Origin: Symbiodinium sp. CCMP2592
Lineage: Eukaryota > Sar > Dinophyceae > Suessiales > Symbiodiniaceae
Assembly (NCBI GenBank): GCA_905221615.1
Contig: CAJNDT010000503.1
Coordinates: 1-64,000, forward strand
DNA: 64,000 bases
Direction: 5' to 3'
The notes under the pieces are model-generated. The model had not been told where the DNA came from. It saw only the letters and a list, made by a program, of their open reading frames with translations, and did no database searches. Position 1 is the stretch's first letter; each line of letters opens with the position of its first letter. A program made the position numbers and the translations under genes. This document shows positions 11,647-32,899 of this stretch, piece by piece.

Positions 11647-11657
11647 ATAGATTATAG
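11644..11657 (-). other. 7-bp tandem duplication causing a frameshift in pol
   Basis: On the plus strand cttatag is followed by attatag, a 6-of-7 tandem duplication. Upstream of it the protein runs in the frame of the 11650-12300 segment, and downstream the H-H-C-C zinc finger and integrase run in another. Removing seven bases would make the two frames continuous, so this is most simply a disabling insertion and not a programmed frameshift. Confidence 0.7.
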
Positions 11658-12297
11658 CTACCCGGACTCGTTGCGGTAACGATCTCCACGCCGCTCGGCG
11701 CTCTGCCTCCGTGTTCGGAGTTCCTGGAAACGGGAATTGTTCCAGAATGAGGCGTTCTCTTTCCTCGGGCGTCAGTGCGCCACCGGCATTGTCCACTTCA
11801 TCATGGACACCTCGCCGAGGCATCTCAGCGTCGGGCACCAGCTCTGCTTCGCTGATGTCCTCAGGATCTGTGTCCTGGGCGTCGCCGACAAAGCAAGTCC
11901 GGCTAAATGCGTTGATATAGTACTCCTCAGAAATGGTACGACAAAGATTCCAAAAGTCAGTACTATCCGTATCAACATAGCTACGGGGTATATACCCGTA
12001 AGACTCTGACCATGCTTGGAAGGTGTCCAAAGCCTTTCCGATCTCTGGGCCTATGCCTGAAATATGCATGTCTCCTCTCAAGGTAACAGTGTCCTCAAGC
12101 ATTGGATAGCCGTTCGGGGTAACCAATATGATCGGAATGTTGAGGGTATCGGCTACACACTCAAGCTCCAAACACAACTCCTCTGTGGAAGTCTCGAACC
12201 TGGCAACCACGAGGCCCGGTGGCCCGTTCTGCCTCTCGTTGATCACGCTCGCGAGGACCTGTGCCGAGGGTTCATTCAATCTAATCAGGTGATCAGG
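11650..12297 (-). CDS. Pol segment between the RS region and the integrase zinc finger
   Basis: About 215 codons in a separate frame, with no ATG of its own. The frame is already open before the TTG at 12279. It contains an acidic D-A-Q-D-T-D-P-E-D-I-S-E stretch and, towards its end, P-G-T-P-N-T-E-A-E-R-R-A-A-W, which leads into the sequence that normally precedes the gag-pre-integrase zinc finger in dinoflagellate copia elements. It is part of the same broken polyprotein as its neighbours. I recognise no enzymatic domain in it. Confidence 0.6.
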
Positions 12298-12305
12298 CAG
12301 CGTTG
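12290..12305 (-). other. Small indel, frameshift in pol
   Basis: The frame reading out of the preceding segment ends at TGA (12295-12293). The downstream segment is open in another frame from the same point. A deletion of two or five bases, or a one-base insertion, near here would explain the shift. The exact change cannot be told without an intact copy. Confidence 0.5.
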
Positions 12306-12397
12306 TACACGATTGCCTTTAAGACTTCGTCCCCCGCTACCATTTCGGTAAGGCTTGAGGTGAGGTACTTGGACTGGGCCTTGCTAAGCTTCTTTAG

Positions 12398-12407
12398 GCT
12401 AGCTAGC
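12398..12407 (-). other. 4-bp tandem duplication (gctagctagc) ending the RS-region frame
   Basis: The frame from 14597 stops at TAG (12401-12399) inside a duplicated ctag motif. Without one of the two tetramers the reading continues for some 45 codons of plausible protein (L-K-K-L-S-K-A-Q-S-K) toward the next segment. Confidence 0.6.
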
Positions 12408-14597: not shown

Positions 14598-14601
14598 AAC
14601 A

Positions 14602-14610
14602 TAGGACATC
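14602..14610. repeat. 9-bp target-site duplication of the insertion, left copy
   Basis: taggacatc, identical to 31877-31885. It lies exactly between copia coding sequence on the left and insertion-specific repeats on the right. Nine-base duplications are typical of Mutator-like and some other DNA transposons. Confidence 0.65.
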
Positions 14611-14640
14611 GACGCATACCAACGCCAGCTGCGGGGTTAC

Positions 14641-14755
14641 GTAAGCTAACGTCGGTCTACGTCAGCTAACGTCGTTCTACGTCAGCTAACGCCGGTTTGC
14701 GTCAGCTTGCGTCAGTCTACGTAAGCCTACGTCGGCTACGTCGGCTGCGTCGGCC
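14641..14755. repeat. Subterminal 20-bp tandem repeat array of the insertion
   Basis: Six degenerate units in register: 14641-14660, 14661-14680, 14681-14700, 14701-14720, 14721-14739 and 14740-14755. The core is gt-a/c-agctaacgtcg with a tail -tctac. The array starts 30 bp inside the insertion. The motif cagcttgcgt of unit four recurs inverted at 31839-31848, near the other end, followed by the related caacttgcgt. Such arrays at transposon ends commonly bind the transposase; that role is inferred here. Confidence 0.7.
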
Positions 14756-14880
14756 ATACACAGGATCCCATGCGATTCCAAATCGATTCTGTAATCAACT
14801 AAGAAAGAAAACTAAATTGCTTGCTTATCCCATGGATTTAATATTATCATAGATGTTAATATCAGTCCTGAGCATGCATG

Positions 14881-14934
14881 CGTTCAGCGTAAGCGCTGCG
14901 CAAAGGAAGCCGCTGCGTCAACGTGCGTCAACGT
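14881..14934. repeat. 54-bp direct repeat, copy 1
   Basis: Matches 15064-15117 with a single difference. It ends in gcgtcaacg units that continue as a short 10-bp array after copy 2 (to about 15140). It lies within 550 bp of the insertion's left end and may be part of the terminal region. Confidence 0.8.
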
Positions 14935-15063
14935 ATGCTGTTGCGCTGGCATGCGTTAATTTGAAATATATACTTTTCGATATCCGTTTTGCATGGCTTG
15001 TATTTAATCTTGCTTAGATTTCAACAAATATGGGTTGAACTTTATTTAATTCTCACTGCAGTA

Positions 15064-15117
15064 CGTTCAGCGTAAACGCTGCGCAAAGGAAGCCGCTGCG
15101 TCAACGTGCGTCAACGT
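15064..15117. repeat. 54-bp direct repeat, copy 2, with 10-bp array
   Basis: Second copy of 14881-14934, followed by further gtgcgtcaac / gtgcgccaac units. The core gcgtcaacgt is related to the gtcagctaacg motif of the subterminal array. Confidence 0.75.
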
Positions 15118-15243
15118 GCGTCAACGTGCGCCAACGTGCGCCATGGGTACGTTGTATTGTGCGTCGGAGACGTGCGTCGATCTTCGACTTTATAAATCGG
15201 AAGCCAAACGTTTCACCGTGACGGCCATCTTCAGCCATCGAGG

Positions 15244-15265
15244 CTTGAGCCACTTTGAGCCAAAA
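15244..15265 (-). other. Possible relic dinoflagellate spliced leader, two tandem truncated copies
   Basis: On the minus strand TTTTGGCTCAA is followed within a few bases by TGGCTCAAG. Both match the 3' end of the dinoflagellate spliced leader. Tandem truncated leaders are known marks of mRNAs that were reverse-transcribed and reinserted. The match is short (11 and 9 bases), so chance is possible. Confidence 0.35.
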
Positions 15266-16105
15266 AAATTAGAAACATGTGCATGTATACATATTATAAC
15301 ACACACACACACACACACGCATAATACATGTGTATAGGGTCTGCTGCTCCAGCGTCTTGCAAATATAATATAGAATCGAAACGAATAACAACTTCACTAA
15401 CCCTTTTATTTAAGGTAATGATCCGAAATCACCGAAAGTCCGAAAGACAAGCCTAAAACCCTGGATCAATCTTGAGTGGGTGGTCGAAGGCTTTCGATGG
15501 TTTCGGGAATGGGACATCGTTGGACGAGTTTTTAACAGGATGGGTTTCTTGGGCTCACAGTTTGAGGTTCCCGGATTTCAAAAGGGCCCAAAGTGCCAGG
15601 TTCCAGGGTTCAAGGTACCGCATTATGGACTTTGTGGGTGTTTATACTGGAGTTGATCGGGATTGGGGATTAATCCTTGGGTCTGAACCCAAACTAATAT
15701 CACGATAAACAACTATAACACCATAACCGATATCGAAGGATTAGTCCTGTAGCAAAAGCAACCACACATTCCTGGACACCCGGAAGTTCTTGTTGGGGGC
15801 TACTTCAGTAAACGATTGCTGGTATCATGACCTTAAGAGGTGTATTCACTCAAGAGGCCTACCGTAATAGACTCCGATCCCGTCATAACTTTAAGATACT
15901 GCAGGGCACCTCAAGGCTCTATAGTGCTGTAGGGTACAGCGATTGTTTCGGGTCCCGTACCTGCTTCTGTAAACTTGGAAACCGACAACCCAAATAAGAT
16001 ACACTCCCAAATAACATTAACCTTCCATCCTTTCCTTCGGTGGCGGACGATGCACGCTCCGATCAGCCGAGCTGGCCGGGGCCCTCGGAATTCCCCAGCT
16101 TGCGA

Positions 16106-16228
16106 CCTATAGTAGAAGCCAGAAAGTTGGAACATGACTTTAGGAGGATTAGTGCTAGGATCCCTTATACTTTACCTTTAGGGTATGAGGCCAATGATGT
16201 TCCAACTTTCTGGCTTCTACTGTATAGG
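16106..16228. repeat. Foldback (MITE-like) element, family 2
   Basis: Arms of about 30 bp (16106-16135 and 16197-16228) are near-perfect inverted repeats around agtagaagccagaaagttgg. Arms and centre are similar to 60845-60967. It lies 88 bp downstream of the gene A stop codon and could fold in the 3' untranslated region. Confidence 0.75.
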
Positions 16229-16315
16229 GTTTTGGTAGTCGTAGAACCCTGGGTTCAGTGAAAATTGTATCTGGGGTACCTGGCATCTAGGGGCTAGATT
16301 ATTTAGGGCCGCTTA

Positions 16316-19160
16316 CTAGGTTCGCTGGGCAACCCGACGCGACTCTTCGAGCCTCAGGCCCATCAGCAGTAGATACCGCTGCATCAAACGTTTCATCGCA
16401 GTTGCTGCATGGCAGCGGACAGCTATCTTCTTCAAACGCCCTAAGAAAGATTCTTCCTCCCACACCGCTCCGATGCTCGGGTTGATCCGTGTTCTCAAAA
16501 TGAAATCGGAAACATGATCGAAATAATGGTGCTTTGGTTTCAGTCTCCACAGACGCCAGCCTTGCGATTGCGAGAAGGTCGACAGCCACTGCCAACAAGT
16601 GAGATGACGTCGAATATGTCGGTATGATACCTGCAGTTGATTTGAAACCAGGACAACAATTATTTTTGAAAATTCAGAAACCCGAAGGATTTTCGATTTG
16701 CCCACACATTCCCCAGTTCCCCGCCTTTGAGGTGTCCTCGTCCATAACTAATGCAGCGTGGTCCAGCTGCACAATGGCAGAATGAATCGACCAAACGCAG
16801 ACCGACACGAACTTCAGGGGCAGAACCTGGCAGGGAATTCCGTGGACTGTTGTATTCACTACCTTGAAACCCAAACCCAAACCCACGGCACACTTAAATC
16901 ATGTATGCATGCTCATGACATGCCTCCGGTTGCGCTTTCGAAATCTCTTCGGCTTTCCAAGCCAGGAACCACAGTGAAGACTTTATAGCAGCTGCCTTGA
17001 AGGTTGAACAGAGTTCAGGATCTTCGTTCATAGAACTTCCAATACCAATATTGCTCGGAGTGAAGCTGCGGACATTCATTCGTATCCTCGGGCTGTTTAC
17101 CCAAATTACAACTGCAGAAACCATTGCGCATTTAGAACTGCGATTAGACAGCACAAACTACCGAGTAGGGAACCGAAAAATCGCAACACAGGTTCGTAAT
17201 ATACAGGTGGGGTCTTAAAGAGGATTAGGGTTACCGAAACGGTGCCGCTGGTATACCCATTCTCGCGACACTTTTTCTTCATCTCGGACGACAAGCGCAA
17301 AAGTTGCTGAGCAATGGTGCCACCACCCAGAGCATTGAAGCGTATCCAGAACACGATGCACGAAGAAATCATGACCCGAAGCGTACCCAAATAAAGAATG
17401 TGCATCATATCCAATAGAACCGTGTGCAAGTTCCAGCCAGGCATGCATGCCCATGGTGACACTTCCAACGCCGTGCGCATATAAGTTGTATGACTAATAC
17501 GGGTCAGCCTGTGGGGTGCACCTTCGCTGAAGTCGGTGAAAGGGCACGTTTTCTCTGGTTTCGCCTTCTCGGCGAAGCATTGTTCACAAATCAAATCACA
17601 GTTGTAGTATCTTTCAAAGCGGTTGGCCTGCATGCGTGCTTTCATATCCGCTTTGAAGCCAGTGTATGCTAGCTTGAAACCGCCGGACAAAACCTGTCCC
17701 TTCAATCGATGCCTCCAAGCACTCTGAAAAGGTAGCCCGTCTTCGCCAACGGTGGGTCCCAAACCGGTCGCTGCACACTCCATGCTCCATGCTAGTATTT
17801 CCGCAACACGTTTGTGAACGTGCGCTGCCACGGAGTCATCCCTCATAGCCACGTGCGGGACGATGCAAAGCGGCATCTTGCAATCCCACACCTATAGCTT
17901 AAGCTAGCTATCGTATGGTCGTTCGGGGAATCTTGGGGATATTCGGGTATAGCTTGTTATAAACCACGACAATGCCGAGAAACATCAGCCTTTGCATGAA
18001 TAGAGCTCATTGACCAAACAACATATTCGTTGTTCTTGTAGAACTCTGCTCCGTCCACGTGAAAAACAACCGGCAGAACTCCTTATTTAGGCACCATGAC
18101 GGAAGCATGTAAACTTTGAACACATGAAAAAACTGGATTGTGCTTCACCAAGGAGCTTTCTAAATCATTTTTCGGATCATTGAGTACTGGATGATCTTTC
18201 CACTCAGTATGCTGCATTGCATGCATCCAGAAACTCTTCATCTCAGCACCAGTGCGCCCACCAGTCATTGAGCGGGCAAACTGCGCAAGGGCTTATAGAC
18301 TGGAAACCACAAATTAGTCAGGCCTTCTGGTAAGAACACCACGGGACTTGTTTAGTCACCCGGCCTGCTCACGGCCTGAGTTGTACAAGCAATGCAGAAT
18401 CTCGTGCGGAAGGAGGAACGGAATCTCCACTGTCTGGGGCTCGTCCTCGTGTTCAACCTCAGAGAGTTGGATAAAATCGTCAGAGGGACAAAGGTTCGAA
18501 GAGAAAGCAGAGAGAACCGAACAGGCTATACAGAGGCAGAGACAGAAAGGGCAGATAGAACGAGAGATCGAGAGAGAGAAAGCAGGGATAACACAACTAC
18601 TGAAAGGGCAAGCTGGAGCTAGTGATGAAGTTAGAAGTATAGTTGCACCCGAGAAGCATTAACATCCATCAAGACGTTGTACATCTCTAGTTCAAAACCA
18701 AACAGCCGCTTCAGCCAGTTGTGCAAGTCGCGCTCTTGATTGGAAGGATGCTTGCCCTCCCCTCCCAACGAAGCGAATGCCTTCACAGCTTCCAGCGGCA
18801 GCCCGTCCGAAACAGCAGCCCTAGCCAAATCAGCGATTTGTGCCACCGTTGCTCGTCCAGTACCCAGCATACCTCCAACATACGTATAGGAAAACTCAAA
18901 TACTATTTGTACTATACTAATAAATAAAGACATCAATCTATCGCAAAACACGAAAACTTGTAAAACAAACACACTCCCACCCACACAAACACACATTCTC
19001 TCTCCCTCCCACATAGTCTCTCACTCTCCCAATCTATCTTTTTCTCTTTCTCGAGCTCGGACTTATAGACGGTGTCATAGGACGGGACACGTATGAACTC
19101 TTCACCCACCTCGCTGTGTTGCATGTCGTCGAATTTGCGCTTGCGTAGACTCCTTAGCAT
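16316..19160 (-). CDS. Gene A: multi-exon protein with Tnp2/KDZ-like transposase motifs
   Basis: I infer about nine exons. Exon 1 has ATG at 19160 (M-L-R-S-L-R-K-R-K-F-D-D). Then come about 18885-18665 (G-R-A-T-V-A-Q-I-A-D-L, ending in G-K-H-P-S-N-Q-E-R-D-L-H), about 18480-18365 (I-P-F-L-L-P-H-E-I-L-H), about 18290-18160, about 18077-17980 (F-H-V-D-G-A-E-F-Y ... V-V-W-S), 17890 to about 17225 (a C-x2-C pair, then L-D-M-M-H-I-L-Y-L-G-T-L-R), two exons between 17170 and 16700, and a last exon from about 16600 to TAG at 16318-16316 (K-P-K-H-H-Y-F-D-H). Introns end in AG|G, as usual in dinoflagellates. I recall this as a very high-copy dinoflagellate family of unknown function. The D-G...W, D-x-M-H-x-x-x-L-G and K-x-x-H-x-x-x-H blocks resemble Tnp2/KDZ transposases; that is an inference. 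Exon borders are approximate. Confidence 0.6.
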
Positions 19161-19911
19161 GCATATAACATGTTGGGACGTAGCCTTCGCGTAAAAAGTT
19201 GCGGAGAACGATTATAACCATAATTTGTAATACTTTGGTCGAAGGGCAACTTGGTTTTCAGGGTTCGAGGCATTAGCTGAGGCTGGCCTTGAAGGTTGAT
19301 TAATGCACTCGAGCCCCACTGCTAGCTTGAATTTAGCTTAAACCCAACAAGCGACACTATCTCAAACCTTCTAAAGTAAACGGCGGCCCTCCCAGACCCT
19401 CGCGTTAGCCCGTGACCTCAAAACCCACCCTAAACCCTTTAGAACCCAAAACCCCACTTGACGAAACCTCACGAGGCTCGAAGCGGTGGAGGTGCTGGTC
19501 GCGATGCTGGATTGGCCTCGGAGGAGCAGACTGGCTAGGGTTTAGTGTTGGGGTGTGCGGGTTTACAATAGGATCTGGCACCGGCTAGTCCCAGGGTTTT
19601 TTTTACAACTTCACACCTTGGCTTTGGCAGATGAGGAGTAACGACTTGGATTTCGTGGCTAGAAACACAGGGTATGTTGTGCTGGAGCTTATACAGGGAT
19701 AGTTCAGATAATGCTTGCAAGCGTGCAGGGCTTCAAGATTCGAACTAGAGCCACTGAAATAACTGCATACATAGCTCCCCAATCATCGGTTTTGTTCGCA
19801 AAGCATGCGAGCGGTTCTCGAGTCCATGCGTGTGCATGGAAGAATCGTGGAGCTGCAAAACTGCGCTGTATCAAAAAGCACTGAATCATCGATCATCATC
19901 AAGAGGGCCTT
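19161..19911. other. Spacer between genes A and B
   Basis: No gene is recognised. It holds some telomere-like words (around 19410-19545) and AT-rich single-copy-looking sequence. It may contain the 3' untranslated region of gene B and the 5' region of gene A. Confidence 0.5.
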
Positions 19912-22847
19912 TTAGACACTCTTGGCTGGGGTGTCTTTGACACCCTTCTTGTTTTTCTTCGATTTGCTCTTCTTGAGTCCGGACTGAAGGGCTTTGGCAG
20001 ACGCCTGGCGGGATCAAAATATTATGAGTTTATGGGGACAACTACCTCTAAGATGAGAATTGTATAACTACCTGGGTATAAGGTTTGGGTTCTATACTTC
20101 GAAACTATATAACCACGATTGGGTAAGGTTTGGGCTCTTGGTAATTATATGATTTACACTGACCCGAATATCTGAATGGCCTCGGCTTTCTTGTACCACT
20201 GATTCATCGCCTCAAAGATGGAGTAGAACTTCTCAAAGCTCGCGTTGTTTTTCACCCCGCGCTTCTTCAAATCTTGGAGTTTGGCATAGATGGTCTCGAG
20301 TTTGACACTGTGCTTCTTCATCTGGGCGACCAAGTCGTCGCTGTAGTCGAGGTGGGCCAAAGAGATGCTGAACTTACGTGCTTCGCTGGCCTCTTTGAGG
20401 ATTTCGTCCATCTTGTCTTGGACCAACCTAGGATTCAGTGTTATCGACCCAAACAGAAAAACCGGGCCCAGCTATATCGTAACTATCATATGTTTAATTC
20501 GAAATCTAGTAGAGATTTTCGATAAGTCGGGATGCTCCCACGCTTCCTTCGGCTCCAACTCCTCGGTCTCCTCCTTGGCCTTCTCCATTTTTTTCGGCGG
20601 CTTGGCTTTGGTGACTTCGCCATGCAAAGCCTCGAGCACCGCCTTGCTTCCCGCTTCGCTCGCTCCAGCAACACTTGGCAGGGCACCTGCTGCCAGAGGG
20701 CCGCCCTCCAGCAGAGCCTCTCCCAACTCCTTGTCCGGGTTGTCCTTGATCTTCAGCGTCAGCTTCTCCTTGGTCTTGTCATCTCTGCGTACCGTGGTTC
20801 CTTGGCCGACAAAGTAATAGTATTCCTCGGGGTCGTCCGGGAAATCTTCGTCAATCTCGTACATTCCCTTCTTTGTCAACTTCGTGATGAGCTGGGCAGC
20901 CTTCCTTAAACCAACACTATTCAATGTGTATTATGGGATTGGCTTCGGTGCGGGTGCGGGGGTGTGGTCCTTAAGGGGTTTGTGGTGGGTCGAATAATGT
21001 AGGTCTAATTTAACACTACATTTCGGGGCAGGATATTGGGGGGTTGTTTGGGTTTGCGGGGGCGGGGGTGTGGTCCTTAAGGGGTTTGTTGTGGGTCGAA
21101 TAATGTAGTATATTTTTAACTCTACATTTCGGGGCAGGATATTGGGGGGTTGTTTGGGTTTGCGGGGGCGGGGAAGCTTTATTATTCGGCAAAGACTCTC
21201 GACGGGGTACTTCTTCTCGATTTCCCGCTTTTTCATTCCCTGGCGCTGTCGTCTGTTGAGAGTGCTCTGTTCGGTCGAACGTTCGATCTCCAACTGCACC
21301 CTTAGATGATGTGTGTTGCTAGACAAGAAGTCTGTTGTGGGTTACACTTGAATCAAGGTAGCACACACCAAACAACGTCACCAATATCGACCAGCCACTT
21401 CTCCCAATCACCACCGGCTTCTAGCCACTTACGAAAGACATCCGTCTTCCCCTTGATGATGTGTGAACTCAGAGCTTGGGGGAACGTTTTCCGGTTCTGG
21501 ATCGCCCTGTGGAAGGTGTCCCATTCTCTCTTGTGTGTGGTACCTCGGGATATATCTAGAGTACAAAATAAGGCTGCAGTACTTTACATATAGTTCGAAG
21601 ACAATCATGTAATCAGCAATAATCGATCATGGTAAGTTTCTGTTCGCAGTCGCATAGAGCTTCTTGGCTTCGGAATCGGCTGTTGCCACTGTGCTTTCCA
21701 ATCCCTCAGCCGCCTCGGGCTTCAAGGCTGCTCGGGCCGGGGGCTCCTTGGTCTCCGTCTTCTGCTTCTTATCCTTCTTCTCCTTCTTCTCCTTTTTGTT
21801 CGTTTTCTCCTTCTTTTCCTTCTTATCCTTCTTGTCCTTGTGGTTCACCGGGGTCGGCGTCGGCTCCGGATCCTTGGCCGCGCTTTTGATGGTCTCCGCC
21901 TCGGACTCATCCTTCTTGTTCTTCACGAAAGAGCTCGGCTTCAAAGCCGACTTGCGGGGCGGGGGCTTCGCCGGCTCTTCCTCCTCGGACTGCGAGTCGG
22001 GCTCCTCGGAGTCGAGGCTGTTCTCATCCTCGGACACTTCGGCCTCACTGGCCGCCTCCTCGAGATCCCCGCTGCTGACGTCGGCGGAGCTGACCCCGCT
22101 GTTCTCGGCAGCCTCGGAAGAGGTTTCGTCATCGGAGCAAGAGGAATCCACAGAGTCCTGCATATAGTTTCAATTAAATTCACTTATCCCAGAAAACTAT
22201 TTACTTAATCTATTTGTTAGAAACCAATTATATTCACTTATCCCAGAAAACTTTTAGATTAATCTATCGGTTAGAAACCAATTACATTCACTGGTCCCAG
22301 AAACTACTTATTTTATCTGTTACAAACCAATTACATCCACTTAACCCAGAAAACTATTTAATTTATCGGTGAGAAACCAAGTACATTCACTTATAGAACC
22401 CAGAAAACTATTTAGTTTATCGGTTAGAAAGCATTACAGGATTTCAGTATAGTTCTCCTCGGCTTCGGCCTCCAAGTCCTTCTTCAACGACTTGCGAGGG
22501 TGCTGGCTGAGGTAAGCCGCCACCGTTTTGCCCGCAGCCACTGCCTTCTGCTTCACGTCCATGCAGTCCGCCACACTCTTGCGTTGCGCGCTGTCGGGGG
22601 AGGTAGTCCGGCGGACCTTGCTGGAGGGGGTCTCCACGGCATCGGGCTCGGCGTCCTCCTTGGACTGCTTGTTCCTCTTGCGTTCCTTCACGGCATCACG
22701 AAGTGCCTTCTTCTTGGCAAGCTTCAAAGCTTTGGCCGCCCTGGCTCCGTTCACGGAATCAGCTGCTGCCTTCTCCTTTGTCTTGCCACGGCAAACCTTG
22801 ATAGGAGACAGCAAGTGAGCTGCCCTGCCTCCCTTGGGTTTACCCAT
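19912..22847 (-). CDS. Gene B: Lys/Glu-rich multi-exon dinoflagellate family protein
   Basis: Exons read on the minus strand: 22847 (ATG, M-G-K-P-K-G-G) to about 22440, a basic K/R/A-rich part; 22160 to about 21645, an acidic S/E/D run followed by D-K-K-D-K-K-E-K-K-E-K, low complexity and probably disordered; about 21545-21355 (T-F-H-R-A-I-Q-N, then D-V-F-R-K-W-L-E-A-G-G-D-W); about 21310-21190 (E-R-S-T-E-Q-S-T-L-N-R-R-Q-R-Q-G-M-K); 20905 to about 20525 (Y-Y-Y-F-V-G-Q-G-T, acidic end); 20425 to about 20160, helical and coiled-coil-like; and about 20008 to TAA at 19914-19912, a lysine-rich tail. Only the ordered middle (W-L-E-A-G-G-D-W region) looks like a domain. I recall related proteins as abundant, uncharacterised dinoflagellate families. 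The function is unknown. The K/E-rich composition suggests a nuclear or nucleic-acid-associated protein. Confidence 0.6.
20957..21172. repeat. Intronic tandem repeat of about 110 bp, two copies
   Basis: A G-rich unit containing ggtgtggtccttaagggg, gggtcgaataatgta and catttcggggcaggatat is present twice in tandem inside an intron of gene B. The copies differ at only a few positions, so the duplication is recent. Confidence 0.8.
22165..22430. repeat. Intronic minisatellite of about 57-60 bp, about five copies
   Basis: Repeats of a unit with ttagaaaccaattacattca and cttatcccagaaaactattt fill the gene B intron between the basic and acidic exons. The units are degenerate and AT-rich, in contrast to the GC-rich exons on either side. 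Confidence 0.85.
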
Positions 22848-25000
22848 CTCGAAGTGCTGCCGCCGATGGCCCAAAGTAGGGCAACTCGATCAAAAGCTGC
22901 GAATATGGAAGCAAGAAGTCAGCCAAGAATGGGAGCTCAGCCAAGAATGGGATTACTCAGTGGCGTCTGGTATGAAGGCAAAAATTGAGGCACTCAATGC
23001 TGAATCGTTGCGGCTACCTACATTGGCTGTCCGGAGTCACTTCGTTTCGGGAAACTTTTGGCTATCTGGGGCTCCTTAGGATCCTTCGGGTTTGCTTCGG
23101 GCTCGTTCGGGTTCGTTCTGGTTCGCTCGGGTGGGATTTTGGGGGCCATATACCATTCGTGGCTGTTCGCGCTTTTTCGCGGCTGAGTTCGCGCCCAAAC
23201 GCGGCTGAGTTTGGGGCGGTTTCGGGCCAAACCGAACCAAACCGAAAAAATCCTGCCGAAATTGAAAATTGAAAAACGAACCTAGCAACAAAGGAGCCAG
23301 AGCAGGCCACCCCTTTCCAAACGGGCCCCGTGGCTAAGACCCTCCGAAAGCCAAGAATGGGACAGCTCTCCCTCGGAGGCGCCCCGGAAACATAGCTTAG
23401 AACGAGCAATTGTTAAATTACTAATTACTATAATAAGTAAATATACCAGGTCCCCGGCTTTGTTGCCGTTGTACAGCATTCTTCAGAACGAACCGTGGCA
23501 TCCTGCGTGTTTGGGCTGCATGAACTCAGTGGGACTTACATATCGTAGCAGAGAACGGTTCTACGATAGCACGAAACAACTGCGTTTAAGGGTCGAGGGT
23601 CTCAATACAAAGTTTCCTTTGGGTCCTGGGTTCATATGGATGGATACATATCCTAAACTGGAGGTGGAAGGGAGGCATATCCTAAAGGTGGAAGGGAAGC
23701 CCGGGGCGGTGGCCTCGAACCTGAATACGATTTGGGTCTCTGTTGCTGCTTCGGGCGTCACAGCTTCAGGCCGGGATTGAATAGGAATACAGGACATATT
23801 GTTAATGTTGTTTTGAGTGAACATGTACACACGAAGATAAGGAGCAATGCTTCTTGTTTCTGGGTCATCTGTGCTGTACATAGATCGAACCTACATACTC
23901 CATTTCCCACACTTCTCAACATCCCGAGCGAGTGTGCAGATCTGCTTTGCAGAACTAATTACCATGTGTACGTGCATCAACTGGAAGGATCTCCGTGGTT
24001 GCTGCAAAGAGAAGCTGCCCGGCTCGGCCGAGCACCGAGATCACACCAGCTGAAGCAAAGGGTCCCAGGCAGATAGGAGGCAGTTGCTATTAAGGTCGAA
24101 GACGATACGTTCACTGGGTGATTTTTCTGCATCGGGCACTGCTTCCGATCATGTCTGTGCACTAGAGCATCTGGAGTTTAAAGTCCAGGGAGAGTCATGA
24201 CTTGCGACAAATTAGCAGCCACGAACCACTCTGGACTCGTGTCATCTTGCACTGCTGGAGCTTTGACTCTCTTGGCGTAGCGCAACCACCTTCTGCTATC
24301 CGCCTTAACAGCAGCCGAAACCTCAGATCGAAGATCTGCAAGAGCTCGCCCGAACCTCGCTCGGCCCAGGCCGGGCTGGACGGACACCGTGCGCAAGGGC
24401 GGCTCAGGGGGTTTCCGGGTGTTGATTAAGAAGGTCACAGGATTATGCAATGACTTTGGGCTCATATAGTTTTTAGATAGTTTCTGGGAATTCGGAATTA
24501 GATGGTTTGAAGCCAGAAAGAATAGGACACTTGCCTCAAAGGCACAGGTTGCAGGGTCTAGGGTTTCGAGGTATTTGGGAGATCGGGGTTATTGATTTAT
24601 GGGGCCGCTACTTATGATCACACCCCTTCAGGGATTCGATTGGGAACCGTATAACATACACCGAAGCTTGCCTTCGAAACAGTATATGTACCGAATTCTA
24701 AACCAAGGCTCTGCCACGGGTACGATTGGCTAAGTTTCAGGTCTTTCCCCCCTGTAACCTTGGCATTGCCATCCTGGTCGTAGGTCCGCTGAACCATTTG
24801 TTTTTCCGCCGAACATTCGGGAAGCCATCTCGGGCGATGCTTGTAGATGTCGCCGGTTTCGGGTCTATCTTAGCCAGTGGATATGGGCAAATAAACAACT
24901 AGACAATTAGCAAACCTGTAGGAACTCACATAAGATGTATATATGTCCATATATTATAATTGATTAATTTTCTTTACTTAATTTTTTTTAGTATACAAGA

Positions 25001-25031
<31 letters not shown>

Positions 25032-25078
25032 GTATACATACTTATATATGTGCAGATGCATACATACATACCTACATT
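22848..25078. other. Long spacer between genes B and C
   Basis: I recognise no confident gene. A 95-codon minus-strand segment at 24178-24465 (A-L-A-D-L-R-S-E-V-S-A-A-V-K-A-D) has a plausible protein-like composition and might be an isolated exon or a remnant. About 23080-23230 is a run of degenerate gttcgggt words. An AT dinucleotide tract lies at 25001-25028, just before the long palindrome. Confidence 0.45.
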
Positions 25079-25186
25079 ACTGTCATGCTGCAGAAGTAGG
25101 CTATGATAGCACATGCTACATATAAAGTATTATAATACTATATATGTATAATGTGCTATCATAGCCTACTTCTGCAGCATGACAGT
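25079..25186. repeat. 108-bp near-perfect palindrome
   Basis: Arms 25079-25114 and 25151-25186 are perfect 36-bp inverted repeats. The 36-bp centre is itself largely self-complementary (tacatata...tatatgta around agtattataatact), so almost the whole 108 bp can form one cruciform or hairpin. It begins 27 bp downstream of the gene C stop codon. It may be a foldback transposon or an RNA 3'-end structure. Confidence 0.9.
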
Positions 25187-25212
25187 ACGAACTCTACGAG
25201 TTTAGCGGGGCA

Positions 25213-26171
25213 CTAGAAACAAAGACTTCGGTAGATTATGGGGTATATGTTCGAGTGCCAGCGAAACATTCTGAGCAGCCGGCTGCTGTAGAGCCAGGTG
25301 GGCTTGTCCGCCCAATGACCATATGTTTTCATCTGCAGCGAAGTGCGGTAAACTGGTATCCTCTGAATCAGCCATTGGAATAACGGGTGCTCTTCCAACA
25401 AGCTTCCTCTAGGTTGCTCCAGGATCCAATAGACCCCCTTTGCCGAACAAACCAGTAGCAGGACCAGTGTTCTTACCGTCAAGAGATTGCCTTGCCACAC
25501 GGAAAGGATTTGATCATCCCCAAGTGGTCGCCCCATAGAACGACGAGTCTTTGACCGTGATCTCGGGATCACAAGCAAAATCAATGTTTGCCTTTTTCGA
25601 AACTACTTTATATTTACGATCCTTCTTTAATGACTGCTGTCCAGGAACAAGAAAACCCACGATGCACAAACCGGTGCGAAAAGAGCACCGGAACCTCTAT
25701 TCAGTCGGCAGCACTGTAGCACTGCATGCAGAAAGCCCGGTCCGGACAATAAATCTTGACCAAGAGAGTCATACCTGATGTCGAAGCAGGCAGCCGCTCG
25801 CAAATCCTGGTCCAACTTTGGGTGCATGAGTGGGCAAGGCTGCGTGGGTGCGAGGGTGCAATTAGGGGCTCTGGCAATTCGCCTATTTGGCCCTCTAGTC
25901 GTCTGTTGTTGTAGGATCCCAAAGCACACGTCTGGCACACCCAACAGAACAAGCCTATCCCCCCTCCCTCCGTCGTAAGAAAACGAAGACATGTCATGAC
26001 ATCGGCTTCACGGTCCTGTAGCTCGGCTACTGTAACCGCTGAATCGCCAGCAAAGACTTCGAAATGATCCAGAGCACCAATGCCGGCACACACCGGAAGA
26101 TCCAGGACCAAAGAAACCAACATGCCGATAACCTTGGCGATGGGGTTGGAAAATATGAAAGGTTGGACCAC
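25213..26171 (-). CDS. Gene C: methyltransferase-like dinoflagellate family protein
   Basis: I infer three exons. About 26171-25995 encodes H-F-E-V-F-A-G-D-S-A-V-T-V-A, resembling the F-x-G-x-G (motif I) end of a Rossmann methyltransferase strand. About 25797-25645 encodes G-P-G-F-L-H-A-V-L and A-L-F-A-P-V-C-A-S-W, resembling the P-C motif region of C5-cytosine methyltransferases. About 25565 to the stop at 25213 encodes R-S-K-T-R-R-S-M-G-R-P-L-G-D, a hydrophobic helix, I-L-E-Q-P-R-G-S-L-L-E-E-H-P and Y-G-H-W-A-D-K-P-T-W. I recall the E-Q-P-x-x-S-L-x-x-x-H-P family as high-copy and uncharacterised in dinoflagellates. The methyltransferase reading is an inference, and the catalytic P-C is changed to P-V-C, so activity is doubtful. 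Start and upstream exons are not resolved. The perfect palindrome lies directly downstream. Confidence 0.5.
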
Positions 26172-27583
26172 AACACTAGAAGCGTATGCAGATAGCTATG
26201 CAACTAGGCGACCATTGGGGCACCCATAGCTTTCAACCCAGACAGAATCCATCTGCGCTGTTGCTTTCGGCAGAATGTCGTTTTGACGGGCTGCCGATGC
26301 TTGGGATGGCGACTTTGATGCTTCGCCATTGCAATTGCAATACTTCAATCTACAGTTCTTTTGAAGAAGCTACTCGACACATGTTTCGCTGGCAGGATGG
26401 GCTTTATTAGTATTTGGAAGATCATATTTAATCTGTAGGAGGAACTAATTTATGGCTTCTGTTTCACGGCATAAAAGACTCCCAGGGCTCGGAAGTGTTC
26501 CCAGTTTCGGGGAGGATGGGCTTAGGTTGTGGGGTATGGAATATGATTTCGGAGGTGTTTGGTTTAGGCCCAGTTTAGGCTTTGGGGTCTCAGTTGTTGA
26601 GGCTTACAGCTCCAGGGTTTTGGGGGCTCAGGTTTTAATTCAAAGGCCTGAATATTGTTCATAGCATAGGGTAGTACTCCCTATTTCTGTCTATCTATCT
26701 AGACTCTATCGATCTGCATATATTTATATTTATATATGTACATACATATAGATTCACATACATACCCCCAAAACCCTGCTCCAAGAGTCCTCCGGTGTCT
26801 CGAGCAAGATAGTTGCACGGGTAGGTCCGTAAAACGAGGGTGTACATAGAGCCTATAAAGTGCTTCTCAAGCACTAAAACCATAGATAGATAAGGGGAAT
26901 CATATGAGTATATGCTATCCAAAGCCCGAACCCTGAGGCCTCAAACCCCTAGCCTGAAAAAACCCTCCCGAAAACCAAACCCGGGACTGAGAATACCAAA
27001 GCCCTGCATCCCTAAGCGTCCGAATCCCAACAAAAATCTAAGCCCCGAAGCCGTAAAACCTTGCAGTCTCTACAAGCGTGAATCACACCAGAAATCCCCA
27101 AACCCTACAACCCACACGCAGCTCAAGCCCGAAACCCACGCTACGGGGAAGCTTCAGAAAGGCGATTTAAGTTCTGGATACGGGTTTGAGGTCTCAAGAA
27201 CAGATATCGAAAGACCTAGAAGCAAACCAGCCCGGAGCCCATTATCTAAATCTATACGACGCTGCTCCTATTCCCTGGAGACCATGCAGAGCTCCTCGAG
27301 TGGTCACGATGTACACCAGTGGCAGGACCGAACCTGTGCCAGGAAAGCTTGACTGTGCAGGGTTCATGGAGCGGCTCCAAAGAGATTCTTTATGATCCGT
27401 GCAGTACAGCAATCGAGTGCACAAACGATTTTATCACGTGTGATCCAGCATGTCACCAGCAGCACTAGCACCGTATCGCATGAAGCCTTGAGACAAAACC
27501 TTTAGGCCACACGAACTATGTACAACCAGGTTTCACCCCTCCCAGCTGTACCATGTGTGGCTTGTGCCCGATCGATTTGTCAA
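26172..27583. other. Spacer between genes C and D
   Basis: No gene is recognised. It contains degenerate telomere-like words (gggtttagg-type around 26500-26650; ccctaaac-type around 26925-27140) and a short AT/TATC stretch near 26690-26760. The upstream exon(s) of gene C may lie in the first few hundred bases. Confidence 0.45.
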
Positions 27584-28410
27584 TCAGTTGGCGACCACAA
27601 ATCCTCCCATTCTCATGGCTTTCTGCCAAGCCTGCGCCGGGCCGCCGCTCTTCTTGAAAGCGATGGTGCCTTTGGCACCACCCGGAGCAGGCTTTTTCAC
27701 GTAGAATGCTCCTTTCTTCAAAAGCACGTCCACGGTGCCTGCTGGATTGCTGTCACCGTTCATGTAGATCTGCTTCGTGTAGCTGTAGGCGCCGTTGTGG
27801 GGCAGGGTCCAATCTGGCAGCGACTCAGTTGGAAATCCTCGCAACGAGAAGCCCTTGAACTCCGGCTCCGCATCCGCCGGCTCGGGGACCTCAAGCTCGC
27901 GCTCGTCCTCGTCATCGGAAGGGACCCTCGTTGAGGCTGCGGCCCCTGTAGAGCCACTAGACAGCCTCGCCTTCTTGCCATCGGACAAATGCATCAATCT
28001 GGCACGCTTGCTGCCACGCTTGCTGCCACGCTTGCTGCCACGCTTGAAGCTAGCACGCTTCGTCTTGATGCACTTGCCACTCTTATCAGCCCTCTTGGCC
28101 TTGATCTTCGAAGCCTTGCTCTTGGGCTTCGTGGACTTCTTCTTGGCCTCGAACTCATGAGAGAGATGTAGTACGTGCCGGGTTCATGCAACTACAGCAT
28201 ATGCCACAACTTGTACCTTGCATGCATAACAACAAACACACCATCCCCTTAAAGCACCTGGTAGATGACAGCTTGCGATGGATTTGCTTGCAACTGCTCC
28301 ATCACAGGGCCAATGTTCGAAGGCTCACTCAACAAAGCGGTTTGGCAGGAGCGGCCAAAACTAGGCAAAGCTCTGGACTCAGTCTTAGCACCAATACTCA
28401 GCATGCCCAT
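27584..28410 (-). CDS. Gene D: small basic two-exon protein with C-terminal G-G-x-x-x-A-W motif
   Basis: Exon 1 is 28410-28258: ATG, 51 codons, ending Q-A-V-I-Y-Q. It is followed by an in-phase GT donor at 28257. Exon 2 is 28153-27584, after an ATGAG acceptor. Joined, the product is about 240 residues. It has a basic stretch with a 12-bp tandem repeat (28011-28046, G-S-K-R three times), an acidic D-D-E-D-E-R-E-L-E linker and a compact C-terminal domain with S-Y-T-K, G-T-V-D-V-L-L-K-K-G-A-F-Y-V-K-K and G-G-P-A-Q-A-W-Q-K-A. I recall C-terminal domains of this kind as a large, uncharacterised dinoflagellate family. The basic N-terminal half suggests nucleic-acid binding. The phase and splice consensus make the two-exon model good. 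Confidence 0.65.
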
Positions 28411-28496
28411 GGCTTCGTGTAGCGAGGATGCCTTATATCACACGCACACAACGTAGCATGCAACACACAGAGGTGACGAGAGCTTTGGAGGTGCTG

Positions 28497-30771
28497 CTAA
28501 GGCTCAGAAATCGCAGGCTTTGATGCAGAGTCCTCGTCGTCCCTGAGAAAGCGCGGCTTGCAAAGGGGGTGTTCTTCAGGAGGTACCAGCACATGACCCT
28601 TCACGGCGACGCCATTATCATCCATCGCCACGGGCCAGCACTTGCGCGACTCATGATCGGGCATAGGCTCTTTTGGTCCCACGAAGAACTTATGCCTCTT
28701 GAGCATGGGGGGGCTGGGCTCACCATACTCAGGAACATCGTGCACCGAGCAATCATCCTCAGCCTCGTCGTGCCGGCTCGGTGACCTCCACGCTTCGTAC
28801 CAATCGGGCACGGTGTCTTCATCGTCGTCCTTGCTTTGGTCCAAAACCAGTGTCTCGGCATCGGTGAGGCCCTCCTCAAAGTCCGAATCCTGATCACCTT
28901 CGCTCGCTGCGAGGTCAGACCGGTCCTCACCGTCCGAAGCCTGGAGCTGCTTCACTTCGTCATCGATGTCGAACTGAGCCAACATTTTCTGGAGCTCGCT
29001 GCGGGTCACCTCCTTCGGCCAAGTCTCTACCGGACCCTTGATGGACTCGTCGTCGCTGCTATCCTTGCCATCACCCATGGACTCTTCGTTGTCGCTGCTC
29101 TCCTGACCATCGGCCACCTCTGTGGCAGCGACAAGGGCCATGCCGTGGCTCGCCTCGTCACCGGCAGCCTCGGCCCGATCATCGCCCATGGACTCTTCGT
29201 CGTCGCTGCTCTCCTGGTCGTTGCGAGCCTCTGTGGCAGCATCACCGGCAGCCTCGGCCCGATCATCGCCCATGGACTCTTCGTCGTCGCTGCTCTCCTG
29301 GTCGTTGCGAGCCTCTGTGGCAGCATCACCGGCAGCCTCGGCCCGATCATCGCCCATGGACTCTTCGTCGTCGCTGCTCTCCTGACCATCGGGAGCCTCT
29401 GTGGCAGCCTCGGCCCGATCATCGCCCTCTTCCTCGTCGCTGCTCTCCTGACCATCGGGAGCCTCTGTGGCAGCCTCGGCCCCATCATCGCTCATGGACT
29501 CTTCGTCACCGCTGCTCTCCTGACCATCGGCAACCTCTGTGGCAGCGACCAGGGCCATGCTGGGGCTAGCCTCATCACCGGAAGCCTCCTCCCCAGAACC
29601 ACCCTCGGACTCTTCGTCCTCGCCGCTATCCTTGTCACTCGCAGCCTCCTGCGAGCAACTCGTAGTTGGGAAAGGGTGTGTTGCAGAAAACCACAGAAGA
29701 GAGGGAGAGAGAGAGAGAGAGAGAGAGAGACACGCTAACACAAACCAAAGAGAGAGACGTGAGCTTGCAATCTACGTACATCGCATAGCTCAATCACTCG
29801 GAAAGGACCCAGAAATCTCCTCACGGGCGACCACTGCATCATCAGCTTGAGGCTGAGCGCGTCGATTGCGGTTGGCTAGGACCTGGGAGTTTGGATTCGG
29901 GGTCTTTATCATTTAAACATTCATGAAGGCTGAGGACACTGCTCGCGGGGAAGGCTTCAAGAAAGATTTCAGCTCTGTGACATATGGATCCAATGATTTC
30001 TCACCTGAGATCACACGGCTCGCAGATTAAGTAAGGTTCAGGGCTCAAGAAACCAGCTGCATCGATCTTGCATCCTATATCTAGTCAAGGTACTGTTCCT
30101 GTACAAGTAGCGCAAAGACGAGATCAGCTTTTTCAGCTTCCCAGCTTCACGACCGGCCAAGTCTTGTTTCGTCAGCAGGGCTTCCGGGGTGTCTCTCTTT
30201 GCAACCAGGAGTTTCTTGTCCAGGGTTCCATCTAGGTAAAGGAGCACGTCCGTCAAGTACAGTGCTGATGGCACCTGTAGTGAAGGGGAAATTGTCGTTC
30301 AAACAGAACTAACAGTATGAGCCACGCAGTGCTGACCTATATACCCGGCACCTTGTCCTCGAACATCTGCACTATTGGACGCAACCATACATAGTTCACC
30401 CGGATCTCCTGTTGTTTGGCAGCGGATGAAGGCGATATTATAGAAAAAAGTTCAAACTCTTGCACGACATCATCCCGATCCTTGTAGCCCGGCCGCGATA
30501 TGAGACTATCCAGAACCACGAGATCCCCTCCGCCGAATCGGCCCTGCTCGAAGATCTCTCTTGCATTCTGTGGAATGTTCGCCAGCATAGTGTTGGCTAG
30601 GTCAGCCTGAGAAGCAGTTCCAACCATAACACTACGAAAATGATGGAGAACAACCGTTTGTGCTGAGGTCTGCAATCGAGGGGCTACCTGCTTCTCTGTC
30701 CAAGCGATCTTTCCGGGTCGCACCGATTTCCACTGCGGGGCCGGGTTGGCGGCCGCAACTACTTCTGCCAT
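28497..30771 (-). CDS. Gene E: multi-exon protein with long acidic repeat region
   Basis: Exon 1 is 30771-30352 (ATG, 140 codons, M-A-E-V-V-A-A-A-N-P to M-F-E-D-K). The GT intron 30351-30275 ends CAG|G. Exon 2 is 30274 to about 30095 (V-P-S-A-L-Y-L-T-D-V, then D-L-A-G-R-E-A-G-K-L-K-K-L). A short exon lies near 29851-29785 (D-D-A-V-V-A-R-E-E-I). The last exon is about 29657 to TAG at 28499-28497. The last exon encodes about 390 residues, mostly E/D/S, including two identical 84-bp units (29181-29264 and 29265-29348) that give a 28-residue repeat, and ends in a Trp/Pro/His-containing region (D-W-Y-E-A-W-R-S, H-K-F-F-V-G-P-K). The N-terminal half looks ordered. I know no function; the family appears dinoflagellate-specific. 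A (GA)n tract at 29697-29730 lies in an intron. Confidence 0.6.
29181..29348 (-). repeat. Coding tandem repeat, 84-bp unit
   Basis: Two identical 84-bp units with diverged relatives on both sides encode E-S-M-G-D-D-R-A-E-A-A-G-D-A-A-T-E-A-R-N and the following D-Q-E-S-S-D-D-E. Unit length is a multiple of three, so copy number can change without a frameshift. Confidence 0.85.
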
Positions 30772-31716
30772 GCTAGCTTGTAGAGACGATCCTAACTCTA
30801 CTTTGCACTGCAGGGCCTGAAAGTCTCGGGAGATACAGCACGTCAGCGAAGCAGTTCAGATCCTGAAACTTCGTAATCTAGTGACACACACAACCTCAAA
30901 TAAATGTGACATATCTTACGCTTAGTTCTATATGTCTGTACAACATTCTATATATATATATATATATATGCATATATGTCTGTATTTTATGTGTTTATCT
31001 GTCTTATAGTCATGTGTTTACTTATTGATTTGATGCTATATTTGTATGCTTTCATACAGACACATGTCGGTAAGATGTACTCGTACTCGCACACGGGGCA
31101 CGATATATGGGTACACACTCTCTGCCCGTTGGAGCCTCCGCCGGTCGAAGCGAGGCTACTCGCCCCTGACCTCGGGACGTGTTTGGGTTATCATATCGGT
31201 CTAAAATTATTCAGAACTGTTTCGCCGAAGACGACTGTACTACAAATAAGATATTAGATAACCTGAGCAATAGCCTGGAGACAGATGAGGCTAGGACTTT
31301 TCTTTCCCAGCTTCAGCACGGCCAGCGTGTAGCCGGAAGCACATGGGAAGCAAGGTCCACGGTTTCAAGAAAACCCTATAGTCTGCATTCTCGGGTTACA
31401 ACATCGGTGTCTACAGCAGGAGCTGGAGCAGCATATAAGCCCGAAATCAAAAGCCCCAGACTATGCATCCTAAATTTCGCAACTCATGCGACCTTAGGGG
31501 CTCAAGGCTGGCTCAAGCAATGGGCTCTTGCCCTTTGGCCAAAAATGGCACTCAGGAACAACAGAAGCTCCGAGCATGGGGCTATATGGTAACCAGCGAG
31601 TCGAAGTGATAGGTTTTATCGGATTCCCACGGCTCATCAGCACCCGGAAAATGGGAAGGTTCTGTGTTTCCAGCGAGTAATATGCGGGGATAGGGATTAA
31701 GGCTTAGGGTCCAGGG
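30772..31716. other. Spacer upstream of gene E
   Basis: No gene is recognised. It holds a short AT microsatellite (about 30950-30970) and otherwise unremarkable sequence. The 5' untranslated region of gene E is presumably here. Confidence 0.5.
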
Positions 31717-31754
31717 TTCATGGGTGCTATGATGGGGTTCATAGCACCCATGAA
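31717..31754. repeat. Perfect 16-bp stem-loop near the right end of the insertion
   Basis: Arms 31717-31732 and 31739-31754 (ttcatgggtgctatga and its complement) enclose a 6-base loop (tggggt). It lies 122 bp inside the right end of the insertion. Confidence 0.85.
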
Positions 31755-31801
31755 TCCCGTTTTTTTTGTTTTGGCACTTGTCGCTTGGCCAAAAAGCCAC
31801 A

Positions 31802-32899
31802 TCAGCTGAGACATATCAACGCAAGTTGGCTACTACAAACGCAAGCTGCAGCTATCCTTGGTAGAACAGCTGTCCCTAGGACATCTTTCGATCCTATCGG
31901 TATGCCAGGGGCGCGGTGCAAACACGTGGGGCACTGCCCTCTGCACGCTTTGGTTCCCATGAACGGCCAACTGTTCGCTGCACTCATGTGAGTGAGGCTG
32001 ACGGAGCAATCCGGCACGAGCTCCAAAAGTGTCGCATGGGTAAGGATACCCGCCGCAACAGATCTATGTCTGTTGGCCTTGCAAACAACATGCACGGCAA
32101 TGGACCGAATCCCAGCCTCCTTGGCGTCGAGGATGTTCGCCAGGATGTGCCTAACGTGGGCAATCAAATTGGGATGGTCTGCGTGCTCCCGAATTATATC
32201 GGGGTTTGACCCAACATGCTTTGTGCGGTCGCGCTGTTCATCATTGCGCTGCTGGGCTTCTGCAGGCGTCAGATCGTCTTTGCGATCGTCTTTTAGCCAC
32301 ACCATGTCAAGCATCACCAGCATATAGCTGGTGGCAGACGCATACGTCGTGGTTGCATGCGTTTCCATCTCTTCGTGCTGTGCGAAGAGCTCGGCTGCTG
32401 TCCACTTCCCTCTGACGCGTTGCAGCCAGGCATGGTGCTCGAAGCCCCAGGTAAAAACATCAATAATGATGTCCGGGTTCGCTATGTCCCCCGCATAATA
32501 CGGCTGCAAAGCCAAATCCGGATTATACACGGATGCAGGGAGAGGCGTGTCGAGCTCCGGACCGTATGGTCCCCCACCTGGCATTATAACCAGGTTCCTG
32601 CCATGCGGATCCTTCTTCACAACCGCATCAAACTCGGCCAGCTCGCGGTGCCCTCTTGCGATTTCCTTCGGGTGCACTGTGGCACGAGCTGCAGGCGGGA
32701 TTCCTGGGCTGTCCCCAGGCCTGGCCTTCTCCGTGGGAGGAGCCTTCTTAGGCAGTGGACCTCCAGGTGGCGCCTTAGGCGGAGGCGCTGACGCCGGTGC
32801 GGCACTGTGGCCGACCGCTGGTGACTTCGCCATGGCACTGTGGCCAGGCTCCGGCGCTGCAAGAACCTTCGGTGCAGCCTTCGCCGTTGGAGGCGCCTT
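31802..32899 (-). CDS. Copia polyprotein segment with RapZ-C-like domain, truncated by the insertion
   Basis: The frame continues in phase from Gag-protease after a single TAG (32902-32900). The first ATG is at 32833, giving 343 codons. The N-terminal part is Pro/Ala/Lys-rich. Numbering from that ATG, residues 241-260 read I-A-V-H-V-V-C-K-A-N-R-H-R-S-V-A-A-G, closely like the C-terminal nucleotide-binding-like domain of RapZ (C-x3-R-H-R-S-V). Residues 297-304 are C-R-G-Q-C-P-T-C, a likely zinc site. Residues 1-319 are element sequence; residues 320-343 and the stop are read from the 17-kb insertion. In bacteria the RapZ C-terminal domain binds RNA and a sugar metabolite; its role in a retrotransposon is unknown. 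Confidence 0.65.
   Translation of the reverse strand, partial: KAPPTAKAAPKVLAAPEPGHSAMAKSPAVGHSAAPASAPPPKAPPGGPLPKKAPPTEKARPGDSPGIPPAARATVHPKEIARGHRELAEFDAVVKKDPHGRNLVIMPGGGPYGPELDTPLPASVYNPDLALQPYYAGDIANPDIIIDVFTWGFEHHAWLQRVRGKWTAAELFAQHEEMETHATTTYASATSYMLVMLDMVWLKDDRKDDLTPAEAQQRNDEQRDRTKHVGSNPDIIREHADHPNLIAHVRHILANILDAKEAGIRSIAVHVVCKANRHRSVAAGILTHATLLELVPDCSVSLTHMSAANSWPFMGTKACRGQCPTCLHRAPGIPIGSKDVLGTAVLPRIAAACVCSSQLALICLS
31839..31848. repeat. Inverted subterminal motif at the right end of the insertion
   Basis: acgcaagctg here is the reverse complement of cagcttgcgt in the left-end array (14703-14712). A related caacgcaagttg lies at about 31818-31829. Matching inverted motifs near both ends support a transposon-like structure. 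Confidence 0.45.
31877..31885. repeat. 9-bp target-site duplication of the insertion, right copy
   Basis: taggacatc, identical to 14602-14610. It marks the point where the copia RapZ-like frame runs into the insertion. Confidence 0.65.
31891..31902. repeat. Right arm of the interrupted palindrome
   Basis: atcctatcggta is complementary to 14577-14588. See the left arm. Confidence 0.6.

Follow-up and report, generated by a model that had tools for sequence, protein, structure and literature searches.

The window analysed here, a stretch of 64,000 nucleotides from Symbiodinium sp. CCMP2592 (CAJNDT010000503.1, positions 1 to 64,000), is part of contig C503 of the searched assembly (1.098 Gb, 5,383 contigs) and contains a copia-like retrotransposon that is interrupted by a giant, gene-carrying DNA transposon. 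The element, its ends and its surroundings are as follows, with positions given in the window:

7281 to 14578, minus strand: left-hand portion of the interrupted copia-like retrotransposon (profile matches and empty-site frame)
14577 to 14578, no strand: target-site duplication TA, left copy (same as 31901 to 31902; the frame is restored when one copy is kept)
14579 to 31900, no strand: whole element, 17,322 bp (common end-to-end to the copies on C1668 and C4940, whose flanks differ)
14579 to 14589, plus strand: left terminal inverted repeat CCGATAGGATC, perfect over 11 bp, with patchy likeness over about 55 bp
14602 to 14610, no strand: internal 9-bp TAGGACATC, left copy (likewise internal in the copies on C1668 and C4940)
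14638 to 14746, plus strand: subterminal array of 5.5 copies with a 20-bp period, its unit recurring near the right end
31877 to 31885, no strand: right copy of the internal 9-bp TAGGACATC (also internal in the other two copies)
31890 to 31900, minus strand: right terminal inverted repeat, the perfect 11-bp complement of CCGATAGGATC
31901 to 31902, no strand: target-site duplication TA, right copy (copy comparison and empty-site frame)
31903 to 36337, minus strand: right-hand portion of the interrupted copia-like retrotransposon (empty-site frame)

The copia-like polyprotein at 7281-11510 has Pfam matches to RVT_2 (E 3e-12) and, below the curated cut-off, to rve (E 7e-5), which bears out the claim of an earlier sequence-only reading of the window that a block of about 17 kb splits such a polyprotein. 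The 20-bp-period array that was read at the left end, with related motifs at the right, is also present: at up to one mismatch the array unit is present 12 times within the leftmost 200 bp of the element, three times within the rightmost 200 bp and 0.17 times per 200 bp in mid-element. The same reading took the 9-bp direct repeat TAGGACATC to be the boundary and target duplication of a block of 17,266 bp. In a scan of the whole window TAGGACATC was found only at 14602 and 31877, but copies of the element with other flanks share 23 bp on the left and 15 bp on the right beyond it. Reconstruction of the empty site from the C503 flanks and a single TA yields a frame that stays open for 1,036 codons across the junction, whereas the empty site of the 9-bp model reaches a stop after 331 codons, 15 codons past the junction. 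Because the shared sequence passes the 9-bp repeat and only the TA model restores the frame, TAGGACATC is part of the element ends, and both the boundary and the size first proposed have to be replaced: the element measures 17,322 bp and has inverted-repeat ends at 14579 and 31900 with a 2-bp target duplication. The first 60 bp aligned to the complement of the last 60 bp give a local score of 22, compared with a maximum of 20 in 500 shuffles, and the likeness of the terminal inverted repeats is patchy past the perfect 11 bp.

The search for blocks with the same termini, suggested by the sequence-only reading, found in this assembly three copies of the left end (150 bp) and, for the right end (237 bp), four close copies and a weak match of 74 bp. 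There are four near-identical copies (99.7-99.96% of aligned bases) with unrelated flanks, on C503, C1668, C4940 and C323. Over 17,322 bp the copies on C503 and C1668 form a gapless alignment with seven substitutions (99.96% of aligned bases identical), and those on C503 and C4940 (17,467 bp) are identical at 99.72% of aligned bases; in every pair except C503 and C1668, the copies are separated by 36 to 48 substitutions and 10 to 12 gap events. The outer dinucleotides are TA/TA in C503, TG/TG in C1668 and TA/TA in C4940; the C323 copy is without its first ~700 bp, meets other sequence at a CA repeat and has TT as its right dinucleotide. Ends were also sought in three further families, at both sides in two of them (C11, C36) and at the left in the third (C4323/C4552). 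In the C11 family (C11, 17,341 bp; C510, 17,204 bp), the left end is CCGTAAGGATCCGAAG with an imperfect right partner, and the duplications are TA in C11, TG in C510 and TA in both C4877 and C5140. In the C36 family they are TA in C36, TA in C3491 and CA in C307. The left end of the C4323/C4552 family was located in C4552 only, where TA lies beside CCGAGAGGGTCC, and C247, examined at its left end only, has TA beside CCGAGAGGATCCGAAG. Altogether, both ends were located in ten of 16 copies from four families, and the flanking dinucleotides match in all ten (seven TA, two TG, one CA); the terminal inverted repeats are perfect over 11 bp in the window family and imperfect in two other families. 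Copies with a single end located have TG at the left (C1997), TA at the right (C3224, C4923) or TA at the left (C4552), and C4323 has none; among the 16 copies the left ends of C4323, C323, C3224 and C4923 and the right end of C1997 were not found. Four copies with different flanks and matched target duplications mean that the element has moved in the past, in agreement with the view of the block as a mobile giant gene-carrying DNA transposon within a retrotransposon. Within the element, a 438-bp stretch is inverted between C11 (L024, reverse complement ~6028-6465) and C510 (L025, 6032-6469), with 99.8% identity.

The genes of the element are multi-exon and on one strand, as had been read; all are on the minus strand:

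16316 to 19160, minus strand: gene T, putative transposase, hand-built model of 9 exons and 608 aa
19160-19025, 18872-18664, 18457-18365, 18280-18188, 18079-17990, minus strand: T exons 1 to 5 of the hand-built model
17891-17257, 17092-16924, 16811-16725, 16630-16316, minus strand: T exons 6 to 9 of the hand-built model
19900 to 22850, minus strand: gene S, lysine- and glutamate-rich protein, from open exon frames (ends approximate)
near 22437-22889, 21630-22169, 21356-21583, 20475-20930, 20157-20471, minus strand: open exon frames of S (approximate)
24621 to 26175, minus strand: gene M, cytosine-C5-methyltransferase-like (exons approximate)
27587 to 28437, minus strand: gene K, basic protein, exon 27587-28183 and a possible upstream exon
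28500 to 29771: acidic repeat region that may belong to K
29850 to 30768, minus strand: gene D (exons approximate)

The first of these genes, T, appears by motif to encode a transposase with a DDE pattern like that of CACTA/Transib elements. Conserved in an alignment of T with divergent relatives are D186 (in HVDG), D289, C309xxC312, a DxMH-like motif, H539xxxH543 and E564. The introns of the model have GT or GC donors and AG acceptors, save one uncertain acceptor (intron 18187-18080), and the junction 17989-17892 is also uncertain; a relative of T (P0001) has two extra residues at another junction. The closest relative in the protein search, from Symbiodinium necroappetens, is 88% identical over 71% of T. 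On the minus strand of L021 (C4323, 592682-602681), an opposite-strand frame of 285 aa resembles, by eye, another divergent transposase of broadly this kind.

M is predicted to be a cytosine-C5-methyltransferase-like protein. A paralogue of M is predicted to have the cytosine-C5-methyltransferase fold, which sequence searches miss: M paralogues have scattered weak matches only to Pfam, and a profile of the paralogues had four chance-level matches only among PDB sequences (E 0.5-1). Cys 118 and Glu 172 are invariant in 11/11 M paralogues and are also present in the window M, after FAG and in the expected order; the match of the window M to the profile was made with a paralogue alignment that excluded two of its own relatives. 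These residues may be the counterparts of the catalytic motif IV Cys and motif VI Glu of such enzymes. Locus L026 (C1112:3399600-3401400) encodes, in a single frame of 465 aa, a relative of M that belongs to the set of paralogues without a notable Pfam match.

Matches to the genes were counted across the assembly. A T exon (261 aa) has at least 147 matches and an M exon at least 150, both lower bounds, for 146 of 557 T candidates and 150 of 1,085 M candidates were scored. With all candidates scored (52, 50 and 17, respectively), an S exon (152 aa) has 36 matches, the K exon 14, and the first exon of D only four, which are the four copies. The claim that the genes belong to high-copy families is partly right, with the highest counts for T and M and lower ones for S, K and D. 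A relative of the second D exon (49% over 61 aa) lies near the right ends of the C11 and C510 elements.

The matches are arranged in a constant order. Within 25 kb of the 36 S matches, T lies downstream on the same strand in 33, M lies upstream in 30, both are present in 27 and no match lacks both, with a usual spacing of 2.2 to 4.3 kb from S to T and 4.1 to 6.1 kb from S to M; matches within one family are not independent, and the 36 fall by eye into ~15 groups. S and T are joined in one annotated gene in Cladocopium goreaui (P0004) and in a EukProt entry (P0005). Of the T rows, 47/147 (45 places, two of them double-counted by exon) have a same-strand M no more than 25 kb upstream, three others have M downstream and three have it on the opposite strand, where about one is expected in all; among the best 33 M rows, T is downstream in 27. 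In 11/14 cases K precedes a same-strand M match by 1.9 to 3.5 kb, namely in the four window copies and in C247, C458, C743, C4323, C4715, C4876 and C5259; next to the other three K matches (C4936, C3201, C591) no M is listed. The gene order K-M-S-T is conserved across the lineage. The sequence-only reading supposed that mobility would explain the abundance of these families. This is right in so far as every S match is near T or M, but the element explains only part of the abundance of M, because only 45 of the 150 listed M places precede a listed T; ~105 of them are untied to a listed T. In C4939, C1398 and C1849, S and T are 15 to 17 kb apart, with an equal distance in the latter two, and the long spacing in these three is likely due to nested insertions.

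The terminal motif also occurs in a fixed position relative to T. CCGNNAGGATCCGAA is found at 129 places in the genome, compared with 28 for the reversed control. Among the 100 of these places that were listed are motifs pointing toward T from 2.4 to 3.1 kb beyond its 3' side for 10 of the 34 best T matches, against an expectation of 0.009. Many listed places read CCGGG and are away from T, and hence are not counted as elements. One near-T motif (C4434:373580) is oriented opposite to the other ten. The many CCGGGAGGATCCGAA places away from T could be some other repeat or short non-autonomous elements.

The best explanation of the locus, and in our judgement a very probable one, is an autonomous-looking cut-and-paste transposon of a dinoflagellate giant-element lineage with CCGNNAGG ends, 2-bp duplications, T and the K-M-S-T cassette. 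T would bind the inverted repeats and subterminal arrays, excise the element and insert it with a 2-bp stagger; either T or S may read the arrays. The second protein of En/Spm elements is an end-binding or architectural partner, and by analogy S, kept between M and T, is probably such a partner here. M is kept by the element, most likely for modifying its own DNA or regulating silencing, and may alter the methylation of the surroundings. More tentatively, and with slightly greater doubt than assent, the lineage may be a separate giant-transposon superfamily with CCGNNAGG ends, TA/TG/CA duplications, a divergent DDE transposase, a constant partner gene and its own cytosine methyltransferase, accounting for some of the unexplained high-copy families of dinoflagellates.

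Several observations weigh against the cut-and-paste transposon as described. T has no Pfam match at E up to 10 and no match among PDB sequences at E up to 1, and two divergent relatives of T have weak or low-complexity Pfam matches, all below cut-offs. The DDE fold is argued from motifs, in an alignment of which several rows are partial, with one divergent relative lacking the second H and another unaligned at the final E; an AlphaFold model of T, built with six sequences, was poor (pLDDT 42.6) and unfit for a structure search. M has no DNA_methylase match in Pfam, the modelled protein is a paralogue other than the window M, and the best Foldseek match of that model has E 1.7e-3 and a TM of about 0.3. 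The termini are not CA..TG, six of 16 copies have one or both ends absent, not found, or beyond the examined sequence (the right ends of C4323 and C4552), and the whole case is drawn from sequence and predicted models.

If instead the element were non-autonomous, with its transposase elsewhere and T a passenger or part of a nested element, the two uncertain splice junctions of T would be accommodated, as would the prediction of its function from sequence only. T, however, keeps a set position with respect to the terminus (in 10 of the 34 best T matches) and to S (in 33 of 36 S matches), and the T exon used in the search has an open frame in each of the four copies, so that this explanation is unlikely. 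An integrated virus-like element of the Maverick/Polinton type would fit a size of 17 kb and several genes, but Pfam gives no capsid, polymerase or integrase match for T or for eight exon pieces from S, M, K and D (one S piece has four weak matches, all below cut-offs), no relative of M was found in viral_contigs with one peptide pattern, and the duplication is 2 bp, compared with 5-6 bp for Polintons; this origin is very improbable. Segmental duplication or assembly artefact without transposition is more improbable still: the C323 copy is without a left end and passes into other sequence at a CA repeat, and some related copies are near contig ends, but three families have several unrelated flanks, with inverted repeats and matching dinucleotides at precisely defined ends, and the frame of the empty site is restored. 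A Mutator-like element, for which TAGGACATC at both supposed edges would fit the 8-11 bp target duplications of that group, is refuted by the identical sequence past the repeat in copies with other flanks, the 2-bp duplication and the stop in the 9-bp empty site.

The cut-and-paste transposon can be compared with known systems. In the red alga Chondrus crispus, enlarged families of En/Spm (CACTA) elements are 16-20 kb long with 4-5 open reading frames (ORFs; Kojima 2013 via PMC6431247); the element resembles them in size, gene number and being a DNA transposon, with a transposase motif type that would be related, and differs in host lineage, in its CCG termini and in its TA/TG/CA duplications. 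Members of the CMCT clade have D, D and E with C(2)C and H(3-4)H between the second D and E, duplications of 2 to 5 bp and, in most members, CA..TG termini, and other members carry a TET/JBP epigenetic enzyme (PMC12730594). T has D, D, E, C(2)C and H(3-4)H by motif, with the two deviating relatives noted above, and the 2-bp duplication is within the range of the clade, whereas the termini are CCG..CGG, T is without a Pfam match, and the epigenetic gene is methyltransferase-like instead of TET/JBP. EnSpm/CACTA elements proper have CAC termini and a 3-bp duplication (PMC12730594); the element has neither, nor any Pfam transposase match at E up to 10. It differs from Plavaka in its CCG..CGG termini (TGT..ACA or CATCA..TGATG in Plavaka; PMC12730594), and from ESTA, which has a TA duplication, in that 3/10 insertions have TG or CA. 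Fungal Starships are likewise giant gene-carrying eukaryotic mobile elements, but are classified by a tyrosine recombinase, whereas the element has inverted repeats, a DDE motif pattern and a gene set partly conserved across families. SymbioLINE-Dnmt and SymbioDIRS-Dnmt3 are Symbiodinium retrotransposons with cytosine methyltransferases, which were sought with Pfam DNA_methylase (PMC5890265); the element is similarly a Symbiodinium mobile element with a methyltransferase-like gene, but is a DNA transposon with an M that lacks a DNA_methylase match. No literature report was recognised as this element in a title-level search, with Repbase reports outside its scope. The proposal that the block is a new class of element goes too far, since terminal inverted repeats, the DDE motif type and the size and ORF number all have precedent: the known kind is the inverted-repeat DNA transposon, and what is new is a giant cut-and-paste lineage of dinoflagellates.

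Many predicted genes of dinoflagellates are without a function, and one set of them is here the cassette of one mobile lineage, which is searchable now that its ends and target duplications are defined. A DNA transposon joins the retrotransposons of Symbiodinium that carry cytosine methyltransferases, and why mobile elements keep such enzymes becomes testable in dinoflagellates of this group.

We know of no copia-like polyprotein with DUF488; in the interrupted retrotransposon, a DUF488 match (PF04343, E 2e-11) sits on the minus strand of 7281-11510 between the integrase and reverse transcriptase matches.
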